From Halorubrum alkaliphilum (GTDB taxonomy: Archaea > Halobacteriota > Halobacteria > Halobacteriales > Haloferacaceae): a DNA stretch of 64,000 nucleotides. The position numbers and the translations under genes are program-made. Of this stretch, positions 1,543 to 36,497 are shown piece after piece. The notes under the pieces were generated by a model. That model did no database searches. It was not told the origin of the DNA and saw nothing but the letters and a program-made list of their open reading frames with translations. Positions within the stretch are counted from its first letter, which is position 1. Every line of letters begins with the position of its first letter. The stretch lies in contig NZ_JAGGKQ010000013.1 of NCBI RefSeq assembly GCF_017873815.1, positions 1 through 64,000 on the forward strand, read 5' to 3'.

Positions 1543-4500
1543 TTATTCCTCAACGGGTGCTGGTGTCTCATTGAGGAGCGTCCGTAGATCCTGAATAGTG
1601 TCAGCAAGCACGTTTGACGATCGATACTCGTACGTGTGAGACGTTTCGATGTCGGTGAAGTATAGCGTGGCGGTTACTTCACGGCCCGGGTCCTGTTGGG
1701 TGAGTGCGGCGGCGTACGCTTGGAGTTGTGGGCGGTGGTGTGCGGCTCGTGCTTTGAGAAACTCGTCGGGTGGCTGGCTCGGTGGTTTCCGATCGGTTTT
1801 GTAGTCGATGACGTGGTATGCGTCTGGGGTGACGATGAGGTGGTCGATGAAGCCGCTGACGGTGCCGGTGTCCAGGCTGAGTTCGATGTAGTACTCGTCG
1901 TAGGTGTGCTGGACGTCAAGGTCAGCGTGGAGTTCATCGAGGTACGTGATGGCGGAGTCGGCGGCAGTTTCGATGGCGTCGTACGCTGAGTCTGGGTACG
2001 TGTCTTCAGCTCTTCCGGTTGTCCGGTCGTGTTGTTCCTGAATTGCTTGGTCGATCACGTGGCGACGTTTCTCGATCGGTGGCTGGGTTTCACAGAGGCG
2101 GTGGACAGCATGCCCGTAGATGGCGGCTGGAATATTGCGGGCGTCGGTTGTCGGATAATCATCCTCGTATTCTTCACTATCGGGTTGTACGGCGCTGGCC
2201 GTGATCCGATGCGTGTCGTTGTTGAGTTGGAGTTCAACGTTCCCGGTGGGGATCCGGCTGAGATCGGATGCGGAGAGTCTGAACTCCCACGGTTGTTCGT
2301 ACGCGTACGCCGACCGGGTGGTTGACGCCGGGACTGGATCGGGGTCCCGGTCGTATGTTTCGGTGTCCGGAGGGAGGCGAACGGATATCGTGCCGTGATC
2401 AGTGTCGCCAGCAAGCGTGTACGGGAGGGTCGCGGTGAATGCGCCGTCGGTTTCGAGGTGGTGCCAGTTCGTGATGGCGTCGTCATCGGTTCCGAACAGC
2501 GTTGGTTGGATCCAATCGCGGTAGGAAAACGGTTCCTCAGGGTCGGGCTGGGTGATGCCGGTTTCGTGGTCGTTATCGGCGGTGTGGCGGCCGGTGAGGA
2601 TGAGGTGGTCTTCGGCGCGTGTGGCAGCGACGTAGAGAACGCGTTTTTCTTCGGCGTGCTCTTCGGCGCGACGGCGGTCGCGGGCCACGTGTCGCATGAG
2701 CGTCGAGTCGGTGTTCGTACGGTCGTCCGTGGGGACGTTCAACCCGAGCAGGGGTCGGCGTTCGTCGGCGATCGGGACGCGTTCGTACTCGATGCTGCCG
2801 TTGCTGAGTCGTGCGCGGTCGTTGAACCGTTTGCCGAGACCTGGTACGATGACGACGGGGTATTCTTGGCCTTTCGCTTCGTGTACGGTCATGATACGAA
2901 CGCCGGTTGAGTCAGTGGCGTCGTTGGCTTCGGCCTCTTTGCGGCCCTGCTCGGCTAGAGTGGTGAGTCGTGTCGTGACGCTGTCGAGGCTGGGGACGCC
3001 ACTCGCGTCGAATTCGCGGAGTTTGTCGCGGAGTTTATCGACGTTAGCGAGTGCGGCGGTGCCGCGTTCATCGGCAGCGATCGCGGCGAGGTATCCGGTT
3101 TCAGCGAGGATCCGGTCAAGGAGCGTCGCCCAGCTATCGACGGCGGCTCCGGGGGTAGATCCGGTGCCGGCGTAGTTGCGCCAGCGTTCAAAGTCCTCGA
3201 CGACGACCTCTATCTCTGGGTCATCGCTCGCACGCAGCGAAGCCCAGAGGGATTCACCCGGATCGTGGGCCGTGGCGAGTTTGGTGTCGGTGAGTCCACA
3301 CAGCGGAGAGCGTGCGGCGGCGTAGAGTGCGATGTCGTCCGTCGGGTCGGCGAGCGCGTTCAACAGTGCGGTGACCGCACGAATCTCCGGGGTATCGAAG
3401 AACCCCTCGCCTTTGATCACGGTGTACGGGACCTTCGCGGTTCGGAGGCCGCGTTCGTAGTCTTTGAGGTCGCTGCGTGATCGGATCAGCACGGCGATAT
3501 CGTTGGGTTCGACGGGCCGCGTGTCGGCATCCGAGTCGTCATCGTTGTCAGTGACGGGTGTCTCGGCGTTGAGGAGGCCGGCAATACGATTGGCGATCGC
3601 GTTGGCTTCGATATCGGCTGGTTCGGACTCCGGAAGGGACGTGAGGTCGTGGTCCGCACCGAAATACCGGGTACGCAGGTCAGTATCAACCGGGACAGGT
3701 AGGTACTCTCTGATCGGGTCGATCCCGGCGGGTGTCTCACGCCCGGCGGTGAGCGGGCCGCTGACGGCTTCGTATGCGTCGTCGGTGCCGTACGCGAACA
3801 CGTGGTCGAACAGGCCGTTGATTGCGGTGAGGGTCTCCGGAAGCGTGCGGAAGTTAGTGGTGAGTGCCGGGTCGCACGGGGGGCGATCGCGTACTGTGTT
3901 CGCGCCATGCATCATCTCGGTGGCGTCGCCAAAGACTGTGACGTCGGCGTCACGGAACCGGTAGATGCTCTGTTTGACATCGCCGACCACACACACGGTA
4001 TCTCCGTCAAACGGGTCTGCCGTGTCGAACGGGTCGGAGCCGCTGGTAAGTGCTTGTACGAGCCGCCACTGGCGCGTGTTAGTGTCTTGGAACTCGTCAA
4101 CCATGACGTACCACACGTCTTCACGAAGCCCAGCGACTGCACCGGCGTGGGCAGTTTCGTCAGCATCGGAGAGGAATGTGAGTGCGTGCCCGATCAGGTC
4201 ATTGTAATCGAGCACGCCACGTTGCTGTTTGCGATCGGCGTACTCCGCACGCGCCTCGTCGGCAAGGGTAGCAAGCGCCGTGAGAAGGTCGTGTGCGTCT
4301 CGGTCCGGGTCAAGCGACACGTCGGTCGCCCGATTCTCGGGCGCGAGTGCGTCAAGCACACCGTCCATTGCCTCACGGAACCGTCTGGCGGTCGGACCGT
4401 CGCTTTCACGGAACGATTTGTTCCCGTAGTAGTTTCCGTCGCCGTAGCGCTCACCGTCACCGTTCGTGAATACATCACATAGTTTGAGACACAGCGAGAG

Positions 4501-24572: not shown

Positions 24573-24647
24573 CTCCGGGAGTCGCCTCGGAAGCCCACAA
24601 CCCGGTAGGTGGGTGGCGTACTTCGGATCATTCCCGGAGCGAGGCTT

Positions 24648-27107
24648 ATGCCAGAACCCAGGCGTGTCAATCGCCTTCAGCGGCGAGGGACGAAGTGCGA
24701 CACGCGAACGTACCATCCGATCCCCGAACTCTCCGTAGGATCGAGCGACGGGAGAGACGAATTATTGATCACATCGGTGGGGTTAGAAGCCCGTCGACGT
24801 GGGCAGATCGAGGAGGTCATCGAACAGCTCGCCGCCGACGGCCATGCCCTCCCCCCACCGTTCTCCGAACCAGAGCTCTATCGAGCAGCCGCAAGCGTCG
24901 GGATTCCAGTCTGGGAACCGGAGGTGAAAAATCGATTCACTGGCGGGATACTTGACCGACTCAACTACGAGTGGGACCCAGTCGCCCAAGGGTTCGTACC
25001 GGTAGTCGGAGAGACCTTGATCGGCGCTATCAAAACTGCCGCCGAGACTGTCGTTCCAGCTCTAAATTCAGAGATCTCACAGTCGCTTCGGAGACGGCTC
25101 GAAGACTGGTGTGAGTTACACGGCTTCGATTCACTGGAACACACAGCCGTTCAGACGATTATTGCACGCCAAGCACTCCTGAGTGTCCTCCTGCAGGCAG
25201 CACTCTACGAGCGACAGCGGAAGCAGCACGCGTGGCCACAGCTCGACACTAATCCGCAGACCACACTTCGCCAAATCGAGGAACGAACAGGGCACCCCGG
25301 ATTCAAAGCGTGTGTGCTTGACGACGTTGTGCAGCTATTCGAGGCGACGGATCTGGAAGCAGTCCTCAGCGAACGACACAGAGTGTTGTATTCGAGCCAG
25401 CCCGCAGAATCCATCGGGAAGCTCTACGAAGCGCTACTCCCAAGCGAGTACCGCAGGACGATCGGTCAGCACAGAACCCCACCAGAGATCGGGAGCCTAA
25501 TGCAGACGTGGGCGACCAGCGGTGGAGACACCGTCCTCGATCCGGGCATGGGTGCCGGCGGCTTGTCGACGCCGTTCCATCCACGATGGGACGTAAGTAC
25601 TGATCCAGGAGATGTCACGGGAATTGATCGGAGTCCAATCGCCGCCCGTATGGGAATCACAGCACAGACACTGGCCCGACAAGGCACGACAGCCCAACTA
25701 ACTGACTTCCTCGATCTCGCCCCGGGAGACTTGGATCACGACGTCGACGCAGTGGTGTGTAACCCGCCGTATACCCGCTATCAGGAACTCCCCGCAGAGT
25801 ACAGAGCCGAACGCAACGCCCAAGCCGAAGACCAAACAGGGGTAGAGATCCCCGGTACCTCGCCGCTGTATGCATACTTCCTGTACCACTTGCGGCAGTT
25901 CCTCGATCCCGGGGATCGGACGGCAGTCATCGTCCCACACGCCTTCCTGGCTCGGGACTACGGAACGCCACTCAAGCGGTTCCTGTTGCGAGAGTTTCAC
26001 GTGAAAGCGCTCCTGATGTCTGATCCGAACACCGAGTCGGTATTCGAGAATGCGCAGACGACCGAGCTGATCCTGTTTCTCGAAGCACGGAGTGAGGATG
26101 ACGACACGGACGTGACGCGGTTCATTCACGTCGACGAGAAGCAGGACGTCCCGAGCCTCACCGACTCGGTCCGAAACGGCAGGCAAGGGGAAACGGAGTG
26201 GGGAGTCGTGCACTGCGTTGAACAGGCGGACTTGGCTCCCGAGCAGAAGTGGGAGCGCTTGTTCGACCCGATTGACGTCGAAACATCTCCTCGTCTCACG
26301 CCGCTCTCGGAACTCGCGGACGTTCGCCGCGGGTTACAGACGGGCGAGAACGATTTCTTTTGCCTCACACAGGAGACCATCGACGCATGGAGAATCGAGC
26401 AGCGATTCCTCGAACGAATGGTTCCGAAGCCGGAGTACATCGAGGGGTACGATGTTCGTTCAAACGACTGGCAACATCACCATGATAACGACCGGCCTAC
26501 CCGGCTGCTATACCATACCGATCCCGTCGAGGGAGTGCCTGCAACGACCTACGATGAGGAGGCTGGCCGCGCGAAGTGGAGTGAAGCTACAACAACGGAA
26601 GAACCAGCGGTCTCGGTAGTGGAGTATCTACGGCACGGCCTACCTGAGCACAAAACGCTCTCGACACGGACAACCGTCCACCGTCGGGAGCCCTGGTACT
26701 GTGTTGAGCGGGGTGATGTCGCGCCGATACTGATACCATCGATGAGCCGGTCAGGCATCCGCTTCCTGCTCAACGAAACCAACGCGCGACACCTGAACAG
26801 TTATTATGGGGTCTACCCTGACCCGGCGATTGGACGGACCGGGAAGAAAGCGCTGCTCGCATATCTGAACTCCACCTTCGTCGACAAAATTGTCTCGCAA
26901 GAGCAACACACGTTGTCAAGCGGACTAAAGAAAATCGAACCGGGAGACGCGAAAGACATCCCTGTCATCGATCCGCAAAAGTTCCCTGATACTGTCGTCT
27001 CCACGCTCGCTGACTCTTTCGACGACCTTCGGGAAGCCGCACGACGTAACGAGGATGAGGAGCCCATCATCAGTCGAATCGATTCAGTGCTCGAACGGGA
27101 ATTGTAG
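24648..27107 (+). CDS. N6-adenine DNA methyltransferase (Eco57I-like) with target recognition region
   Basis: The product is about 819 residues from the ATG at 24648. The first 240 residues are helical and unrecognised. Then come SAM motif I TVLDPGMGAGGL, motif II GIDRSP, and the catalytic CNPPYTRY (motif IV), typical of amino-methyltransferases. A probable target-recognition half follows, with RRGLQTGENDFF and terminal AYLNSTFVDKI and GLKKIEPGDAKDIPV blocks seen in type IIG and Eco57I-like enzymes. No nuclease motif is visible in the N-terminus, so it may be a solitary methylase or work with the Mrr-like nuclease. It would methylate adenine at an unknown DNA site. Confidence 0.85.
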   Translation: MPEPRRVNRLQRRGTKCDTRTYHPIPELSVGSSDGRDELLITSVGLEARRRGQIEEVIEQLAADGHALPPPFSEPELYRAAASVGIPVWEPEVKNRFTGGILDRLNYEWDPVAQGFVPVVGETLIGAIKTAAETVVPALNSEISQSLRRRLEDWCELHGFDSLEHTAVQTIIARQALLSVLLQAALYERQRKQHAWPQLDTNPQTTLRQIEERTGHPGFKACVLDDVVQLFEATDLEAVLSERHRVLYSSQPAESIGKLYEALLPSEYRRTIGQHRTPPEIGSLMQTWATSGGDTVLDPGMGAGGLSTPFHPRWDVSTDPGDVTGIDRSPIAARMGITAQTLARQGTTAQLTDFLDLAPGDLDHDVDAVVCNPPYTRYQELPAEYRAERNAQAEDQTGVEIPGTSPLYAYFLYHLRQFLDPGDRTAVIVPHAFLARDYGTPLKRFLLREFHVKALLMSDPNTESVFENAQTTELILFLEARSEDDDTDVTRFIHVDEKQDVPSLTDSVRNGRQGETEWGVVHCVEQADLAPEQKWERLFDPIDVETSPRLTPLSELADVRRGLQTGENDFFCLTQETIDAWRIEQRFLERMVPKPEYIEGYDVRSNDWQHHHDNDRPTRLLYHTDPVEGVPATTYDEEAGRAKWSEATTTEEPAVSVVEYLRHGLPEHKTLSTRTTVHRREPWYCVERGDVAPILIPSMSRSGIRFLLNETNARHLNSYYGVYPDPAIGRTGKKALLAYLNSTFVDKIVSQEQHTLSSGLKKIEPGDAKDIPVIDPQKFPDTVVSTLADSFDDLREAARRNEDEEPIISRIDSVLEREL

Positions 27108-29084: not shown

Positions 29085-30490
29085 ATCCGACAACGTTGAC
29101 ACAGTCTCTCACCGATTGCAGGCTGGATATTCTACGCTCATCCACACCATTAAGTAAGTGTATTTACATAGGCTATGTATGGCGATTAAGGCCACACGCA
29201 CCTACGTTGGTTCCATCCAGAACCACCAACAGGTTTGTGATGGCCTTGATTCGCTCGGAGACTCCGCCTCGAAAATCTGGAACATCGCACGATGGACCGC
29301 TGACCGTATCTGGGACGCAACCGGCGAAATTCCCGATTCAGGAACGCTGAAATCGTACATGAAGAACCAGTCGTGCTGGAAAGACTTGAACGCACAATCC
29401 AGTCAGAAAGTCATTGAAGAACTTTCTGACGCTTTCCAGTCATGGTTCGATCTGCGACACAAGTTCAGCGAGGCGAATCCGCCCGGCTACCGCAAACACG
29501 GCGACAGCCGACCACGTTCCACGGTGACATTCAAAGAAGACGGGTTCAAACACGACCCTGAGAACAACCGGGTTCGACTCTCGAAAGGCTCGAATCTGAA
29601 AGAACACTTCTCGGATTTCCTGCTTTGCGAGTACCAGACTCGACCTGATGTTGATCTCTCGGAAGTCAACAGCGTACAGAACGTTCGTGCCGTCTGGAAC
29701 GGTGACGAATGGGAACTCCACTTTATCTGTAAAGTCGAGCTCGAATCTGCCGACACAGCAGGCGACGGTGTTGCGGGGATCGACCTCGGAATTACAAACA
29801 TCGCCACGATCGCCTTCCCCGACGAATACGTGTTGTACCCCGGAAACTCGCTCAAAGAAGACAAACACTACTTCACCAGAGCTGAGTACGACACCGAGGG
29901 AGAGAACGGCCCGTCAGAGCAGTCGATGTGGGCACGTCGGAAACTCTCCGAACGTGAGACACAGTACTACCATACGGTGACGGACGCCATCATCACGGAG
30001 TGCGTTGATCGCGGTGTTGGCACGCTCGCGGTGAGCTGGCCGGAAGACGTCCGAGAGTCAGACTGGGGCAAGACCGGGAACAAGAAGCTCCACTCGTGGG
30101 CGTTCGACCGGATCTACCAGTACCTCGCGTACAAAGGCGAGATGCGGGGTGTTGAGGTGCTGAAAGAGAACGAGTGGAACACCTCGAAAACGTGTTCACG
30201 ATGTGGAGACGACACGAAATCGAACCGTGTCGAACGTGGGCTGTACGTTTGCTCGTCGTGTGAGTTGGTAGCCAACGCGGATTGTAACGGAGCGGAGAAT
30301 ATGCGCCAGAAGATAACTCCGAGTCCTCACGGTGAGGATAGGAGTAACGGCTGTGTGGCACAGCCATCGACACACTTGTTCGACCGCGAGAGCGGGACGT
30401 TTCACACGAGAGAACAGGTCGTGTCGTAGACCAGCAAATATCCCAAATGCGGTACGGGAAGCCTCGCCGTTTACGGCGAGGAGGATGTCA
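29045..30490 (+). mobile_element. IS200/IS605-type element encoding only TnpB
   Basis: The element is bounded by imperfect palindromic ends typical of IS200/IS605 transposons: a stem TCCCGGCG/CGCCGGGA with TTTA loop at 29061-29080, and CCTCGCCG/CGGCGAGG with TTTA loop at 30462-30481, followed by AGGATGTCAC at the right boundary. There is no TnpA (Y1 transposase) gene, so it is a solo-TnpB (IS1341-type) element dependent on a transposase elsewhere. Exact boundaries are estimated from where flanking genes are disturbed. Confidence 0.75.
29179..30429 (+). CDS. tnpB: TnpB RNA-guided nuclease (IS200/IS605 family)
   Basis: The product is 416 residues from ATG 29179. The RuvC-like fold shows the first Asp in AGIDLGITNIATIA, a Glu-containing segment LAVSWPEDV, a zinc ribbon CSRCG...CSSC, and the last Asp in ADCNGAENM. 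These match TnpB proteins, which cut DNA guided by an omega RNA transcribed from the element's right end and help retain the transposon. The first and last acidic residues and the zinc cysteines are intact, so the protein may be active. Codon 29158 upstream in frame is not needed by the family's N-terminus. Confidence 0.9.
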   Translation: MAIKATRTYVGSIQNHQQVCDGLDSLGDSASKIWNIARWTADRIWDATGEIPDSGTLKSYMKNQSCWKDLNAQSSQKVIEELSDAFQSWFDLRHKFSEANPPGYRKHGDSRPRSTVTFKEDGFKHDPENNRVRLSKGSNLKEHFSDFLLCEYQTRPDVDLSEVNSVQNVRAVWNGDEWELHFICKVELESADTAGDGVAGIDLGITNIATIAFPDEYVLYPGNSLKEDKHYFTRAEYDTEGENGPSEQSMWARRKLSERETQYYHTVTDAIITECVDRGVGTLAVSWPEDVRESDWGKTGNKKLHSWAFDRIYQYLAYKGEMRGVEVLKENEWNTSKTCSRCGDDTKSNRVERGLYVCSSCELVANADCNGAENMRQKITPSPHGEDRSNGCVAQPSTHLFDRESGTFHTREQVVS

Positions 30491-31450: not shown

Positions 31451-31526
31451 AGCCCCGGAGTCTCCGTTGGCGAGGGACGCCGGACTTTGAATCCGGAGGT
31501 CGCCGGTTCGATTCCGGCCGGGGCGA
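31451..31526 (+). tRNA. tRNA-Gln (anticodon TTG), non-canonical
   Basis: Acceptor AGCCCCG pairs with CGGGGCG except at the end pair. The D-stem is five base pairs (GTCTC/GGGAC). Anticodon stem CCGGA/TCCGG holds loop CTTTGAA, giving TTG. T-arm GCCGG-TTCGATT-CCGGC is perfect. Position 8 is G instead of the near-universal T. First gene of the array; no encoded CCA. Confidence 0.7.
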
Positions 31527-31532
31527 CTGCAT

Positions 31533-31606
31533 GCCGACGTGGTGTAATCCGGCGAGCATACGGTCCTGTCACGGCCGTGATCCGGGTTCGAATCCCGGCG
31601 TCGGCG
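31533..31606 (+). tRNA. tRNA-Asp (GTC)
   Basis: Acceptor GCCGACG/CGTCGGC is perfect, followed by T8 G9. The anticodon stem CGGTC/GGCCG has loop CTGTCAC, anticodon GTC. The T-arm CCGGG-TTCGAAT-CCCGG is perfect and the discriminator is G, as in archaeal tRNA-Asp. Confidence 0.85.
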
Positions 31607-31854
31607 TGGACGCGTGGACAACCACGTGGGGATACCCATCGAGGTAGGCAGCCCGTTGGTGCGATCAGCTGGATCGTTCCTGCGATGCTGGGCCCGGCAG
31701 GGTCTGTAACCTACATGAGCCGGTGTGGTATTCCCGGGAGATCCCGAAGCACGCCCCCGCGATGAGACGCGCGATCACGACCACTCGGTCGAGGTTGCGC
31801 AGTTGGAAAGTCGTACAGATAGATAACCAACTGCCGAACGCTCGGCAGTCCCGT
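31607..31854. other. Gap inside the tRNA array, unassigned
   Basis: These 248 bases lie between tRNA-Asp and tRNA-Pro. They contain a D-arm-like GATCAGCTGGATC and the octamer CCATCGAG that recurs at about 33339 and 33544, but no T-arm or complete tRNA fold. No coding frame looks real. It may be a decayed tRNA or another structured RNA. Confidence 0.4.
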
Positions 31855-31927
31855 GAGCCGATGGTCCAGCGGACGACGATCTGTGCCTTGGGCGCACAGG
31901 ACCGAGGTTCGAATCCTCGTCGGCTCA
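31855..31927 (+). tRNA. tRNA-Pro (TGG)
   Basis: Acceptor GAGCCGA/TCGGCTC and T-arm CGAGG-TTCGAAT-CCTCG are perfect. Anticodon stem TGTGC/GCACA with loop CTTGGGC gives TGG. The D-stem is weak. Only four bases separate it from the next tRNA. Confidence 0.8.
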
Positions 31928-31931
31928 GTGT

Positions 31932-32018
31932 GCCGTGACTGGGTATTGGGGAACCCAGCGGCCTGCTACGCCGTAGCCGTCTGCTATCGGCCTCCCGGTT
32001 CGAATCCGGGTCGCGGAG
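31932..32018 (+). tRNA. tRNA-Ser (GCT), class II
   Basis: Acceptor GCCGTGA pairs with TCGCGGA with an end mismatch. D-stem GGGT/ACCC. Anticodon stem GCGGC/GCCGT with loop CTGCTAC gives GCT. The long variable arm (GCCG/CGGC) and perfect T-stem CCCGG/CCGGG fit tRNA-Ser. The 14 bases at its 5' end recur at 32177-32190 without the rest of a tRNA. Confidence 0.8.
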
Positions 32019-32020
32019 TC

Positions 32021-32161
32021 ATGACAACGAATGTCTGCCCCGCCTGCGAGGAGGAAGCGTTCCGTCACGTCCCACTCGGTGAAACAACGTCAATCGACAC
32101 GATTGGAAGCGTGAAAATCTGCGTCACCGGCGACGGCGCGTACTTCCACGGAACAAGGTAA
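32021..32161 (+). CDS. 46-residue protein inside the tRNA array
   Basis: The frame from ATG 32021 encodes 46 residues beginning MTTNVCPACEEEAF, with a CPxC knuckle, a later Cys, and a predicted strand-rich end. It starts two bases after tRNA-Ser(GCT) and lies entirely between tRNA genes, so it would be expressed from the processed tRNA transcript. I do not recognise it. The single CxxC could be half of a zinc site in a dimer. It might also be an accidental frame, though its composition resembles genuine haloarchaeal proteins. Confidence 0.4.
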   Translation: MTTNVCPACEEEAFRHVPLGETTSIDTIGSVKICVTGDGAYFHGTR

Positions 32162-32279
32162 CCGTCATCCATCCCTGCCGTGACTGGGTGCTGATGAGCG
32201 CATTCACCTCGAAAGAGAGAGTCAGAAAATGAGCGATGTGCGTGTTCCGGCGTCCCGGTGAGCAACGCGAGGCGGGCTC

Positions 32280-32297
32280 GTCGGAGCAAGCTCCGAC
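32280..32297. other. Perfect short hairpin between tRNA genes
   Basis: GTCGGAGC and GCTCCGAC are exact reverse complements separated by two bases, giving a stem of seven pairs with a four-base loop. It precedes tRNA-Ser(TGA) by seven bases. The surrounding gap (32162-32303) holds no gene that I can support. Confidence 0.4.
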
Positions 32298-32303
32298 GGT
32301 GAT

Positions 32304-32385
32304 AGTGAGACATGCGGATAGGCGACCGCGCTCGGTTTGAAACCGAGAGCTGCGAGGCTTCGGAGTTCGACTCTCCGTCTCACCG
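32304..32385 (+). tRNA. tRNA-Ser (TGA), class II
   Basis: GTGAGA/TCTCAC acceptor with a mismatched end pair. D-stem GCGG/CCGC. Anticodon stem CTCGG/CCGAG with loop TTTGAAA gives TGA. A long variable region and T-arm CGGAG-TTCGACT-CTCCG follow, with G discriminator as in archaeal Ser tRNAs. Confidence 0.8.
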
Positions 32386-32387
32386 TT

Positions 32388-32473
32388 GGCGGGATTTCCC
32401 TAGCTTGGTCAAGGGACTGCGCTGGAACCGCAGCGTCCGCGAGGACACGAGTGTTCAAATCGCTCTCCCGCCG
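32388..32473 (+). tRNA. tRNA-Ser (GGA), class II
   Basis: Acceptor GGCGGGA/TCCCGCC is perfect. D-stem CCCT/AGGG. Anticodon stem CTGCG/CGCAG with loop CTGGAAC gives GGA. Variable arm GTCC/GGAC, T-loop TTCAAAT, discriminator G. Two bases separate it from the previous gene. Confidence 0.82.
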
Positions 32474-32520
32474 CTGCGTGCCGAAGTGATTCGCAGAGAC
32501 GTTGGCGATTCTCGAATTGC

Positions 32521-32602
32521 GCCGCCATGCCAGAGTGGTCGAACGGGCACGGTTGAGGGCCGTGTGGTTAGTCCTTCCCAGGTTCGAATCCTGGTGGCGG
32601 CA
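32521..32602 (+). tRNA. tRNA-Leu (GAG), class II
   Basis: Acceptor GCCGCCA/TGGCGGC and T-arm CCAGG-TTCGAAT-CCTGG are perfect. Anticodon stem CACGG/CCGTG with loop TTGAGGG gives GAG. The variable region is long and the discriminator is A, as expected for Leu. Confidence 0.85.
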
Positions 32603-32644
32603 TCCGGCCATCGTGCCGGTAGACAAGTCCCGATCCAACGTTAC

Positions 32645-32727
32645 GTCGCCATACCCCAGTGGTCAACGGGAAGTGGCTCAGAACCGTTAGCGTAGGTCCT
32701 CCCGAGGTTCGAATTCTCGCGGCGACA
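32645..32727 (+). tRNA. tRNA-Leu (CAG), class II
   Basis: Acceptor GTCGCC/GGCGAC with a mismatch at the seventh pair. Anticodon stem AGTGG/CCGTT (two wobbles) with loop CTCAGAA gives CAG. Long variable region, T-stem CGAGG/TCTCG, discriminator A. Confidence 0.78.
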
Positions 32728-32730
32728 GTT

Positions 32731-32802
32731 CTCCCTGTGGTCTAACGGCTACGATACCTCCCTGTAGAAGAGGAGACGCACGTTCGAGTCGTGCCGGGGA
32801 GA
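32731..32802 (+). tRNA. tRNA-Tyr (GTA)
   Basis: Acceptor CTCCCTG/CGGGGAG begins with the C1-G72 pair diagnostic of archaeal tRNA-Tyr. Loop CTGTAGA gives GTA; the innermost anticodon-stem pair is a C.A mismatch. T-arm GCACG-TTCGAGT-CGTGC is perfect; discriminator A. Confidence 0.78.
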
Positions 32803-32806
32803 CTGC

Positions 32807-32933
32807 GGGACGGTGGAAGAGCCCGGCATTCACACACTCTCGCCGAATTTTTACCGGAGACCCGGTGCGACGGAGAGAGTTCCTTCATCTCACTTGTAAC
32901 GAGAACACGCAGGTTCGAATCCTGCCCGTCCCA
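32807..32933 (+). tRNA. tRNA-Thr (TGT) with large insertion in the D-loop
   Basis: Acceptor GGGACGG/CCGTCCC and T-arm GCAGG-TTCGAAT-CCTGC are perfect. Anticodon stem TCTCA/CGAGA (one mismatch) with loop CTTGTAA gives TGT. D-stem GAAG (32816-32819) pairs with CTTC (32883-32886), but about 63 bases lie between them where roughly ten are normal. The insert contains ACCGG/CCGGT and CTCTC/GAGAG pairings, so it may be an intron or an extra domain. Confidence 0.7.
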
Positions 32934-32967
32934 CTGGCCGATGACCCTTCGCAGGCGAGGCCAATTC

Positions 32968-33040
32968 GCTCCAGTGGAGTAGCGGCCAAACTCACGGCCC
33001 TCTCACGGCCGAACCCCCGGTTCGAATCCGGGCTGGAGCA
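32968..33040 (+). tRNA. tRNA-Glu (CTC)
   Basis: Acceptor GCTCCAG/CTGGAGC, D-stem GAGT/ACTC, anticodon stem CGGCC/GGCCG with loop CTCTCAC (CTC), and T-arm CCCGG-TTCGAAT-CCGGG are all perfect. The sequence differs clearly from the tRNA-Glu(CTC) fragment at 39592-39636. Confidence 0.88.
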
Positions 33041-33043
33041 TGT

Positions 33044-33116
33044 GGGCCCGGAGCCTATGCGGACAGGCAAGCGGCCTTTAACCGCAGAATAGCGGGTTCG
33101 AATCCCGTCGGGCCCT
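33044..33116 (+). tRNA. tRNA-Lys (TTT), non-canonical
   Basis: Acceptor GGGCCCG/CGGGCCC is perfect and its GGGCC start is typical of tRNA-Lys. D-stem GCCT/AGGC. The anticodon loop CCTTTAA gives TTT but has C at position 33 instead of T, and position 8 is G. A register shift would read TTA, but the short variable loop argues against Leu. Confidence 0.68.
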
Positions 33117-33122
33117 CTTGAT

Positions 33123-33196
33123 GCCTGGGAGGCCCCCCTGGTGGGGGTGCCGGGCTGTTACCCTGACCGTGGAAGGTTCGAGTCCTTCTCCAGGCG
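33123..33196 (+). tRNA. tRNA-Asn (GTT)
   Basis: Acceptor GCCTGGG/TCCAGGC (one wobble), anticodon loop CTGTTAC giving GTT on stem CCGGG/CCTGA, T-arm GAAGG-TTCGAGT-CCTTC, discriminator G. The D-region forms an unusual C-run/G-run hairpin (CCCCCC/GGGGG). Confidence 0.75.
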
Positions 33197-33217
33197 CTCG
33201 GAACCAGTAGCAGTGAT

Positions 33218-33293
33218 GCTCCCGGAGTCTCCGTTGGCGAGAGACGCCAGCCTTTCAAGCTGGAGGTCGGGGGTTCGATTCCCCTCGGGAGCA
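33218..33293 (+). tRNA. tRNA-Glu (TTC), non-canonical
   Basis: Acceptor GCTCCCG/CGGGAGC is perfect. Five-pair D-stem GTCTC/GAGAC, anticodon stem CCAGC/GCTGG with loop CTTTCAA giving TTC. G occupies position 8. Its D-arm is nearly identical to the tRNA-Gln that opens the array, so one probably derives from the other. Confidence 0.78.
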
Positions 33294-33455
33294 CTCGGGA
33301 ACTGGCAGTGGACACCGACGCTCTGCGTCGTACCATCGAGGTAACGACGTAGACCGGTGACGCGTCCGCTGTCGGTTCCCATAGCGTGCAGTCGTCGAGA
33401 CGGTGCGTTCCTTCAGCCCGCAAGGCACACCGGGAGTCATAGCCCGTCGCGCCGT

Positions 33456-33538
33456 CAGTTTCCCGACCGCACGTGGCGACCGTCGAGTCGAGGCGTTGCT
33501 TCGCCAGGAACTCACAGGTTCAAATCCTGTCGGTGGCC
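33456..33538 (+). ncRNA. tRNA-like RNA A, no anticodon arm recognised
   Basis: The 3' part has T-arm ACAGG-TTCAAAT-CCTGT and acceptor strand CGGTGGC. GCGACCG at 33476-33482 pairs with it with one mismatch. Between them only one hairpin fits: GAGT/ACTC enclosing GGCG-TTGCTT-CGCC, directly followed by the T-stem. The order of blocks (CAGTTTCCC, CGTGGC, CCGTC, CTTCGCC, T-arm, CGGTGG) is shared with the sequence at 33605-33702. It could be a Y-RNA-like molecule, a decayed tRNA, or the 3' exon of a split or intron-bearing tRNA. Confidence 0.45.
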
Positions 33539-33604
33539 CCGTCCATCGAGAACATCCCGGACAAAGAGAGCACGAGGGTACTCTCGACACCGGATCCGCC
33601 TCGA

Positions 33605-33702
33605 CAGTTTCCCAGTCGCCATCACTCATCCCGTGGCCGTCAAGTTGGAGCCATCCTTCGCCTCTGGAGCCAGAAGTCTGGGTTCGAATCCCGGCGGTGG
33701 AA
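33605..33702 (+). ncRNA. tRNA-like RNA B, paralogue of A
   Basis: It shares CAGTTTCCC, CGTGGC, CGTC-AGT, CTTCGCC and the T-arm/acceptor block with A. T-arm CTGGG-TTCGAAT-CCCGG is intact and the acceptor strand is CGGTGGA. TCCTTCG (33654-33660) pairs with it imperfectly; only a small TCTG-GAGC-CAGA hairpin lies between. No anticodon arm is recognisable. CGGTGGAA also pairs perfectly with TTCCACCG just downstream. Confidence 0.45.
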
Positions 33703-33710
33703 TCCGGTCT

Positions 33711-33755
33711 TCCACCGTAGTGTAACCAGGTAGCACGCTGTTCCGGCTCCAGCAG
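33711..33755 (+). pseudogene. Isolated 5' half of a tRNA
   Basis: TCCACCG, T8 A9, D-arm GTGT-AACCAGGTA-GCAC and the start of an anticodon stem are present, but no T-arm or matching acceptor strand follows. The exact complement of its acceptor, CGGTGGA, lies upstream at 33695-33701. GGCTCCAG at 33745-33752 is complementary to CTGGAGCC at 33664-33671. It is a remnant or one half of a rearranged gene. Confidence 0.45.
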
Positions 33756-33773
33756 TTTTCCGGCCACATCCTT

Positions 33774-33848
33774 GTCTCCGTAGCTCAGCCAGGACAGAGC
33801 ACCGGCCTTCGAAGCCGAGTGTCGCACGTTCGAATCGTGCCGGAGACG
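33774..33848 (+). tRNA. tRNA-Arg (TCG)
   Basis: Acceptor GTCTCCG/CGGAGAC, D-arm GCTC-AGCCAGGACA-GAGC, anticodon stem CCGGC/GCCGA with loop CTTCGAA (TCG), and T-arm GCACG-TTCGAAT-CGTGC. It is the most regular tRNA of the array and the last before the Ro-type gene. Confidence 0.88.
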
Positions 33849-33851
33849 TTC

Positions 33852-33915: not shown

Positions 33916-35445
33916 ATGGAATTCAACAAGCCAAAGCAAACGGTCGCGGAGGCAACGCGAACCACCAACTACGAAGGTGGAGAAGCATTCGGGCCTACCG
34001 ACCCTCGACTCGCACTGTACAAGCGCACGATCAACCAGCTGCTGGAGAACTCGTTCTACGAAACCGATGACGAGCAACTCGCCGCTGTCGTCCAGCGATT
34101 CGACGCCGCCGCAGACGAGGATCCGGAGTTCGTCCTGAAGCTCGCCGCGTACGCGCGACAGGAACTCTACTTGCGGGACATCCCACAGGTCCTGCTCGTG
34201 CTGGCAGCCAACGACGACCGATTCAAGGATGACTCCCCCAAGTCGCTCATCCGCGAGTGGGCCCCGGCGATCATCCAGCGGATGGACGAGACGGCCACCG
34301 CGCTCGCCATCCACGACCAGCTCTTCGGCGGGACTGCACCGTGGCCGCTTCGACGCGGTATCGAAGACGCGCTCGTCTCGATGGCCGACGCTTACACGCT
34401 GGGAAAGTACGAACTGTCGCGGCGTGAGGTGACGCTGCACGACGTGTTCAACCGCGTCCACCCCACGCCCGTCGACACCGACCAAGAGGTGCTGTTCGAG
34501 CGATTCATGCGCGGCGATCTCGACGACTATCCCGACGTCGAACCGTTGCCGTCGCCCAACACCTGGGAGACGGTTATCTCCGAGCGCGGCAACACCCGAG
34601 ACGCGTGGGAGACGCTCATCGAGGACGACACGTACTCGCTGCCGATCTTCGCGTCGATCCGGAACCTCCGGAATATGCTCGAAGCCGGTGTCGACGAGGA
34701 CACCATCGTGGAACACCTCGACATAGAGGCGGTGCGGTACGCGCCGCTGTACCCGTTCCGGTACTACCAGGCGTACACCGCGCTCCAGAATGCGGACGTC
34801 CAAGCACCGGCGGTCGAGCGGTGGCTGGAGGACGCAATTGACGCCGCTGTCGAGACGGTGCCCGACGGACTCGGAGATACGCTCGTCGCCGTGGACCTCT
34901 CGGGGTCGATGGACACGGCGCTGTCCAAGAACAGCACGCTCAGGTTAAAAGAGATCGGCGCGTTATTCGGTGCGATCCTGGCCGACCAAGGTGCAGAGGT
35001 CGGCGGGTTCGGTGACGACTTCCAGACCATTCCGATGCACGTGGACACGCCAGTACTGCAGCGTCAAGATGCGGTGCTGGCCATCGACGAGGATGTCGGG
35101 AACTCGACGAACGGCTGGAAGGCGTTCGAGTATCTCCGCGACCGTGAAGAACCCGTTGAGCGAGTCGTCGTCTTCACCGACATGCAGATCTGGGACAGCA
35201 CACCATTCACGGCGCGCGACAACCAGACGGTCAAGGCAGCGTTCGATGCGTATCGAGACGAGGTCTCCACGGACACCTCGCTTTATCTCGTCGATCTTGC
35301 ATCCTACGGCGACCTCGTGACCCCGGAAGGCTACGAGAACGTCTACAACGTCTCCGGGTGGTCGGAGAACGTCTTCTCGTTCATCGAACACGCCGAAAAC
35401 CCGAAGCAGGTCATCGATGCAATCGAGGCCTTCGAGTCTGCATAG
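33916..35445 (+). CDS. rsr: Ro60/Rsr-like RNA-binding protein (TROVE + vWA)
   Basis: This 509-residue protein is close to the length of animal Ro60. Residues about 15-315 form an all-helical TROVE/HEAT-type ring (LALYKRTINQLLENSFY, FVLKLAAYARQELYLRDIPQ, LPIFASIRNLRNML). Residues about 320-500 form a von Willebrand A domain with the MIDAS motif DLSGSM at 327-332, a later Thr, and VVVFTDMQIWD. Ro proteins bind misfolded RNAs and tRNA-like Y RNAs in the ring and work with RNA-processing nucleases; in bacteria they often sit with RNA-repair genes. No RtcB ligase lies in this window. The gene follows tRNA-Arg by 67 bases holding two hairpins and precedes tRNA-Gly, so it is probably co-transcribed with the tRNA array. 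Confidence 0.92.
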   Translation: MEFNKPKQTVAEATRTTNYEGGEAFGPTDPRLALYKRTINQLLENSFYETDDEQLAAVVQRFDAAADEDPEFVLKLAAYARQELYLRDIPQVLLVLAANDDRFKDDSPKSLIREWAPAIIQRMDETATALAIHDQLFGGTAPWPLRRGIEDALVSMADAYTLGKYELSRREVTLHDVFNRVHPTPVDTDQEVLFERFMRGDLDDYPDVEPLPSPNTWETVISERGNTRDAWETLIEDDTYSLPIFASIRNLRNMLEAGVDEDTIVEHLDIEAVRYAPLYPFRYYQAYTALQNADVQAPAVERWLEDAIDAAVETVPDGLGDTLVAVDLSGSMDTALSKNSTLRLKEIGALFGAILADQGAEVGGFGDDFQTIPMHVDTPVLQRQDAVLAIDEDVGNSTNGWKAFEYLRDREEPVERVVVFTDMQIWDSTPFTARDNQTVKAAFDAYRDEVSTDTSLYLVDLASYGDLVTPEGYENVYNVSGWSENVFSFIEHAENPKQVIDAIEAFESA

Positions 35446-35957: not shown

Positions 35958-36497
35958 ATGGGTGGTATCGAACTCCGGAATGGAACACTCGTCGTCGAAC
36001 ACGAGCCGAATCAGCTCGGCGAGCTGGCGATCAGATTTTCCAAAATTCTCGGTCAGTTCGACATCAAGCACGTCTACATCGCGGGATACGTCTCTATCCT
36101 CGCTGGGCGAGCACGCTCTACCGAAGACGTTGACGTCCTCATCGAACGAATCGACGAGGAGACTACAGTCGAACTCGCAGAGACGCTTGACAAGAAGGGG
36201 TTCTGGGGCCCGGCGATGCCGCTCACTTCGATGTACGAGATGCTTGATAACGGCGACAACATCTGGGTTGCCACGGAAGACCAGATTACTCCGCATCCAG
36301 AAGTGAAGTTCGCACGTGACGAGTTCGACTGCGCATCCCTCCAAAACGCGATCACAGCAAGAATTGGTGATGAGGCGATCTCGATTGGATCGTTAGAACT
36401 CCAGATCGCATACAAGCGCCACCTCAGCGAGCCAGTCGTCAGGCATTTACAGTATTTTTTGAATTCCATGTGTTGGGTCCTCTATTGCCTGATCTAG
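35958..36497 (+). pseudogene. Nucleotidyltransferase-like protein, C-terminus lost
   Basis: The protein starts as a nucleotidyltransferase-fold domain: helical IRFSKILGQFDIKHVYIAGY, then RARSTEDVDVLIERI, containing the paired acidic residues of the minimal NTase motif. Such proteins form the toxin or enzyme half of AbiE-like and MNT-type modules. The last 15 or so residues (after VRHLQYF) look unrelated and the frame stops at 36497, right before the transposase gene. This indicates truncation by the IS. Confidence 0.6.

Follow-up and report, generated by a model that had tools for sequence, protein, structure and literature searches.

A Ro60-type gene behind a tRNA cluster

The window, by which we mean the whole 64,000-nt stretch of Halorubrum alkaliphilum DNA analysed here, carries a haloarchaeal tRNA gene cluster and, behind it, a Ro60/TROVE gene. 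Along the forward strand, the order is tRNA-Glu, three related RNAs (designated Y1, Y2, and Y3), tRNA-Arg, and the Ro60/TROVE gene; the spacers measure 2 nt between Y1 and Y2, 12 nt between Y2 and Y3, and 5 nt between Y3 and tRNA-Arg. The features are listed below, where R2 is a covariance model of the module common to the three RNAs.

31451-33849, + strand: tRNA gene cluster with the three RNAs embedded (ARAGORN, Rfam)
33297-33380, + strand: strong hairpin between tRNA-Glu and Y1 (GGGAACTGGCAGTGGAC/GTCCGCTGTCGGTTCCC; MFE z about -3.7)
33386-33472, + strand: Y1 RNA (R2 match of 87.6 bits, Y1 itself being among the sequences used to build R2; covariation; MFE z -3.0)
33475-33620, + strand: Y2 RNA (R2 match of 47.2 bits, E 3.6e-9; 16 compensatory pairs; RNAalifold fold; MFE z -1.9)
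33633-33767, + strand: Y3 RNA, YrlA-like (R2 match of 46 bits, E 7.4e-9; Rfam YrlA match; 11 compensatory pairs; MFE z -2.85)
33773-33849, + strand: tRNA-Arg(UCG), 5 nt 3' of Y3 (ARAGORN/Rfam)
33916-35445, + strand: Ro60/Rsr-type protein of 509 aa, TROVE plus vWA with a DLSGS MIDAS motif (Pfam, phmmer, Foldseek)

The 509-residue protein matched Pfam TROVE with an E-value of 6.8e-21, the match to vWA_Ro60 being sub-threshold, and a phmmer comparison with solved TROVE proteins gave 1.7e-32. Its AlphaFold2 model was of moderate confidence (pLDDT 69.5); a Foldseek search with this model returned 13 matches at E <= 0.001, all of them Ro60 or Rsr, including 2nvo, 1yvr, and human Ro60. The protein has the TROVE HEAT-repeat ring and the vWA domain that characterize Ro60/Rsr proteins. 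Past this gene, a short ORF (35958-36497) is nucleotidyltransferase-like by sequence and has no Pfam or NCBIfam match.

Other features of the window include an Eco57I-type restriction-methylase gene upstream of the tRNA cluster (24609-27107) and an IS605-type TnpB gene (29158-30482) with a sot0042 RNA match over its 3' end (Rfam, 102.5 bits). A gene resembling tRNA-Thr(UGU) at 32807-32934 has a long insertion ahead of its anticodon arm, and Rfam matches only its 3' part (32867-32933, 31 bits).

Boundaries and number of the RNAs

A preliminary description of this DNA had proposed two paralogous tRNA-like RNAs, A (33456-33538) and B (33605-33702). The sequence blocks on which it relied (CAGTTTCCC, CGTGGC, CGTC-AGT, CTTCGCC, and a T-arm with the acceptor 3' strand) are present in the order given, and their sharing among the units is far beyond chance. 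The two units, however, were out of register, each joining the tail of one RNA to the head of the next: A consists of the final 17 nt of Y1 and the initial 64 nt of Y2, and B of the final 16 nt of Y2 and the initial 70 nt of Y3. Since CAGTTTCCC comprises the 3' loop and the beginning of the 3' strand in the RNA before it, it is a 3'-end motif and marks three RNAs rather than two, Y1 having been overlooked. R2 gave exactly three matches in the window, at E <= 7.4e-9, and the next match had an E-value of 0.33. Only tRNA-Arg separates the last of the RNAs from the Ro gene, which corrects the earlier placement of A and B as the last RNAs but two before it.

Neither ARAGORN nor Rfam RF00005 recognized a canonical tRNA cloverleaf in A or B (best RF00005 score for B, 15.1 bits versus a cut-off of 29), in agreement with the view that these are not ordinary tRNAs; the 5' portion of a tRNA that had seemed absent from B nevertheless lies downstream of its T-arm, in permuted order.

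At the position of the 33297-33380 hairpin, loci L028 and L030 carry a fourth RNA of this kind with a UCGA loop. Given this correspondence, the hairpin is possibly a changed paralogue, although this assignment is uncertain.

A common stem with a fixed internal loop

Y1, Y2, and Y3 share a stem composed of 7-9 bp, a 4-nt loop (UCGA), and 9 bp, with a 7-nt loop (NRUUUYC) on the opposite strand. Its parts in the window are as follows.

Y1, + strand: lower helix 33386-33394/33464-33472; 5' loop UCGA 33395-33398; upper helix 33399-33407/33448-33456; 3' loop AGUUUCC 33457-33463
Y2, + strand: lower helix 33475-33482/33613-33620; 5' loop UCGA 33483-33486; upper helix 33487-33495/33597-33605; 3' loop AGUUUCC 33606-33612
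Y3, + strand: lower helix 33633-33639/33761-33767; 5' loop UCAA 33640-33643; upper helix 33644-33652/33745-33753; 3' loop AGUUUUC 33754-33760

Forty loci with related Ro genes were taken from haloarchaeal genomes, and most of them had a homologous upstream region. Each paralogue was aligned separately and scored against a hand-written structure, with 500 shuffles and slid structures as controls; the Y1 alignment also included a short Y3 together with the fourth L038 RNA. The proportion of paired cells was 97.2% for Y1, 94.8% for Y2, and 98.7% for Y3, and the number of pairs altered on both sides was 10, 16, and 11, respectively. For each of the three RNAs, neither the covariation score nor the percentage of paired cells was reached by any of the 500 shuffles, and sliding the structures lowered the paired cells to about 32-55%. 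For Y3 and Y2, RNAalifold arrived unprompted at the hand-written folds, except that an acceptor-like hairpin of Y2 was left open. An alternative upper stem of Y3 through a second GGAGCC copy (33661-33673) fitted the window but was rejected on the evidence of L033, where only the first copy pairs (10/10).

The common module was then treated as one model with 70 RNAs from 25 sources (the window and 24 other loci). In this alignment, which was fitted to the model and hence leans towards it, 95.5% of cells were paired, 20 of the 22 pairs had changes on both sides, and the covariation was 0.51, compared with 0.175 after shuffling and at most 0.135 for slid structures. The loops behaved differently from the helices. 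The 5' loop reads UCGA in 49 of the 70 RNAs and ends in A in all 70, and the first U and the last C of the 3' loop NRUUUYC are each found in 67/70; the near-invariant alignment positions are A13 (70/70), C11 (68/70), T210 (67/70), and C214 (67/70). Variable helices around a fixed asymmetric loop have the look of a protein-binding site, and we infer that the protein at this loop is Ro.

Heads of the three RNAs

The three RNAs differ in the heads carried by this stem, which are located as follows.

33430-33446, + strand: T-arm-like hairpin, the only element of the Y1 head
33514-33530, 33531-33548, and 33557-33593, + strand: T-arm, acceptor-like hairpin, and third hairpin of Y2 (alignment, RNAalifold)
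33657-33673, + strand: anticodon-like hairpin of Y3 (4/5 pairs, 7-nt loop; weak in the window)
33678-33736, + strand: permuted tRNA-like head of Y3 (acceptor pairs covary on both sides)

The head of Y3 begins with a T-arm (33678-33694). The acceptor 3' strand (33695-33701) comes next and is connected through a loop with the 5' strand of the acceptor (33711-33717); a D-arm (33720-33736) with GG in its loop completes the head. Three of the seven acceptor pairs show double changes (CG<->GC, GC<->AU, UA<->CG). The anticodon-like hairpin, which forms the full 5 bp in the homologues of L025 and L026, makes the absence of an anticodon arm from B only partly right. A different anticodon-stem-like helix, GAGAG/CUAUC, was discarded; it pairs only in L025, with one mismatch, and is mostly unpaired elsewhere.

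The acceptor-like hairpin of Y2 has weaker support (85% of cells paired), and its third hairpin, whose ACAAA/GACA internal loop is conserved, stands at the place expected for a D-arm. The T-loop of Y1 is altered to AGUCAUA in the clade of the window. Heads also vary between genomes: in many of them (L006-L009, L011-L015, and others, e.g. L018), the third RNA has no acceptor or D-arm but has the stem and T-arm, and some loci (L025, L028, L030, L037, and L038) carry four to six copies.

Comparison with known Y RNAs

The order of T-arm, closed acceptor, and D-arm in Y3 is that of bacterial YrlA (RF02553), an order that is partly present in Y2 and absent from Y1. The RNAs also resemble YrlA in the pairing of their 5' and 3' ends in a long stem with an asymmetric internal loop and in the adjoining gene for a Ro60 orthologue. 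They differ from it in scoring under the Rfam cut-off, in an extra hairpin between stem and T-arm, and in their occurrence as three tandem paralogues with differing heads. Y3 is built like bacterial YrlA, and Y1 and Y2 are variants on the same stem.

The Rfam YrlA model gave a full-length match to Y3 (33657-33770) of 30.7 bits, below its gathering cut-off of 69 bits. The same model scored junctions of neighbouring tRNA pairs at 22-26 bits (22.5 at 31477-31604 and 25.7 in L033) and left the Y3 homologues of L026, L030, and L033 unmatched at E <= 0.5. Considering these limits, we do not claim formal YrlA membership for the archaeal set, and the case is made from covariation, architecture, and linkage. 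Our archaeal model R1 scored tRNA pairs in arrays up to about 31 bits, and only R2 matches, or R1 matches above 35 bits, were therefore counted. R1 matches of 15-31 bits in tRNA arrays, where adjoining tRNAs mimic the permuted head, were set aside, as were weak T-arm matches to the Rfam models Plastid-ycf2, mascRNA, and tmRNA. The window had no match to Rfam Y_RNA.

The loop letters CGA recall the vertebrate Y RNA motif, and the succession of lower helix, asymmetric internal loop, and upper helix is likewise that of vertebrate Y RNAs. In the latter, a 7-bp helix carries a single bulged C facing a 3-nt bulge (PMC4726728), whereas the archaeal RNAs have a helix of 7-9 bp with a 4x7 internal loop and no single bulged C, and bear tRNA-like heads rather than a pyrimidine-rich loop; they are thus not of the vertebrate type.

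Y RNAs are known from vertebrates, nematodes, and bacteria (PMC4726728). Our search of the open literature found no report of archaeal Y RNAs, only of TROVE genes, which are noted in tRNA clusters of archaea and in Borg elements (PMC11208441). A 2019 survey of archaeal tRNA clusters recorded TROVE in 20 of its 29 clusters and listed tRNA pseudogenes for nearly every cluster (PMC6333295). These clusters are of the same locus type as ours, and the table of that survey, in which Y RNAs are unmentioned, includes two loci used here (Haloarcula amylolytica and H. argentinensis contigs).

Co-occurrence with TROVE

TROVE is encoded in 43 of 391 haloarchaeal genomes. When all 391 were searched with R2, 40 genomes matched, every one of them TROVE-positive (Fisher p 1.6e-51); the three remaining TROVE-positive genomes, missed under strict filters and then scanned only around their TROVE gene, had R2 matches of 34-37 bits near it. 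The RNAs were accordingly present in 43/43 TROVE-positive genomes (three from the TROVE-side scan) and 0/348 TROVE-negative ones, a co-occurrence that is partly built in, since R2 was derived from loci found via Ro and each cluster travels as a unit. The best-hit arrays, 43 in number, all had the RNA upstream of TROVE, on the same strand, and no more than about 1.5 kb from the TROVE-domain match. These RNAs have the adjoining Ro60/Rsr gene expected of the YrlA type. Several of the clusters sit on plasmids.

Outside the haloarchaea, a YrlA-like RNA was found 73 nt upstream of a TROVE ORF in an archaeon of another family (L080; R1 35.6 bits, Rfam YrlA 33 bits). Caulobacter phage CcrColossus (L099) gave matches upstream of TROVE of 40.6 bits with R1 and 42.3 bits with Rfam YrlA, and about six tandem YrlA-like copies, judged by repeated GGTGGCGTAG motif starts, occupy positions 2990-3975, one of them overlapping an annotated tRNA-Gln; R2 does not detect these phage RNAs. 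The phage array and the haloarchaeal RNAs have in common their tandem arrangement directly upstream of TROVE, heads of T-arm, acceptor, and D-arm, and an ACUUCG motif past the upper stem, but the phage RNAs differ in copy number (about six by motif), in their longer lower stems, and in their loop letters. Halogranum tailed virus 1 (HGTV-1, L097) encodes a Ro 44% identical to that of the window, with genes for an RtcB ligase and a nucleotidyltransferase nearby. With these models, no credible Y RNA was found in HGTV-1; a match at 98707-98780 (16.9 bits, E 0.115) was not above background, and the stretch reads as protein-coding. In another archaeal family (L084-L087), an intron-containing tRNA and stem-loop RNAs lie just upstream of TROVE, with a T-arm in two loci, L086 and L087. 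The R1 matches there mostly cover the intron-containing tRNA and were not accepted as Y RNAs; the stem-loop candidates beside TROVE, judged by eye, look right.

Alternative explanations

Decayed tRNAs or leftover 3' exons had been named as alternatives to Y RNA analogues, and the location of the RNAs among tRNAs, together with the frequency of tRNA pseudogenes in the surveyed archaeal clusters (PMC6333295), would suit such an origin. It is contradicted by compensatory changes throughout and near-invariant loops, and by conservation across 24 other loci from many genera. Among the orthologues found, none forms an ordinary tRNA, with or without an intron, and the helices covary instead of drifting at random, so that we consider decay scarcely credible. 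Circularly permuted tRNA genes (cf. Thermofilum and red algae), in which the 3' half comes first and a functional tRNA arises by splicing, were our initial reading of B and the D-arm downstream of it. Y3 truly has the order T-arm, acceptor, D-arm with a covarying acceptor stem, and an anticodon-like hairpin exists in L025 and L026. This reading was dropped because the enclosing stem is common to Y1 and Y2, which lack a D-arm, and because many Y3 orthologues (e.g. L007, L013, and L018) have lost the acceptor and D-arm and kept the stem. The joined ends show neither a bulge-helix-bulge nor, after splicing, an anticodon loop; they form the 9-bp helix, the fixed 4x7 loop, and the helix of 7-9 bp. 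The strict association with Ro also speaks against permuted tRNA genes, which are a very improbable explanation.

It is conceivable that the folds are not free RNAs but a structured leader of the ro mRNA, bound in cis by Ro for self-regulation, since they always lie upstream of ro, on its strand and close to it. An intact tRNA-Arg, however, separates them from ro, and excising it would sever the leader; the tRNA-like heads, moreover, have no obvious role in one. We judge the leader quite unlikely. The RNAs may also be tRNA decoys of mobile elements, their heads absorbing tRNA-cleaving defences of the host while Ro serves as stabilizer. The plasmid location of several clusters and the RtcB ligase gene near the Ro homologue of HGTV-1 are consistent with this, and a decoy role has been proposed for Salmonella YrlA (PMC7790460). 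Yet most of the RNAs have a weak anticodon-like hairpin or none, which would make many of them poor bait for an anticodon nuclease, and Y1 is without most of a tRNA; a decoy function is unlikely.

Discussion

The common stem and loop, the YrlA-type head of Y3, the compensatory changes, the Ro60-fold gene just downstream, and the near-perfect co-occurrence bear out the proposal that these RNAs are Y RNA analogues. We conclude with good confidence that three archaeal Y RNAs are encoded here in tandem; Y1-Y3 are very probably the Y RNAs bound by the Ro of the window. These RNAs match in shape the Y RNAs with which Ro60 associates in animals and bacteria, and archaea therefore probably have Ro60-Y RNA complexes too.

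The analysis establishes the conserved RNA structure, its linkage to Ro, and the Ro fold, and from these we infer transcription, Ro binding, and effector recruitment. The Y RNAs would be co-produced with the cluster tRNAs and the adjoining Ro60 protein. The paired ends with the fixed UCGA/NRUUUYC loop would constitute the Ro60-binding module, as conservation of the loop against covariation of the helices, synteny, and co-occurrence suggest. The differing heads would be effector modules, namely a circularly permuted tRNA mimic in Y3, a T-arm/acceptor mimic with a new hairpin in Y2, and a T-arm hairpin in Y1. Each Y RNA would most likely sit on the outside of the Ro60 ring and gate the entry of structured or damaged RNA, and the tRNA-like head would recruit a tRNA-recognizing partner; with gating and recruitment combined, the RNP would work in RNA, probably tRNA, quality control. 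Archaea are not generally known to have a bacterial-type PNPase, and the partner would therefore have to be the archaeal exosome or a tRNA enzyme. In bacteria, by contrast, YrlA is a tRNA-like tether for PNPase (PMC8394870; PMC7790460). Drawn by analogy, this tether and quality-control mechanism is tentative, and we hold it somewhat more doubtful than probable. A broader and still more speculative view is that archaeal Ro60 RNPs use an interchangeable Y RNA kit, with one Ro-binding stem and at least three heads, the simplest a T-arm alone and the most elaborate a complete permuted tRNA mimic. Mobile elements would carry this kit along with tRNA arrays, viruses would share it, and it might serve as a PNPase-independent module against tRNA damage or host defence.

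If the Y RNA reading is true, the Ro60-Y RNA partnership covers all three domains of life, and haloarchaea would be a test bed for roles of Y RNAs without PNPase. It would account, at least in part, for the odd 'pseudo-tRNAs' found in these clusters, and the models described here would be able to annotate such RNAs in dozens of genomes.
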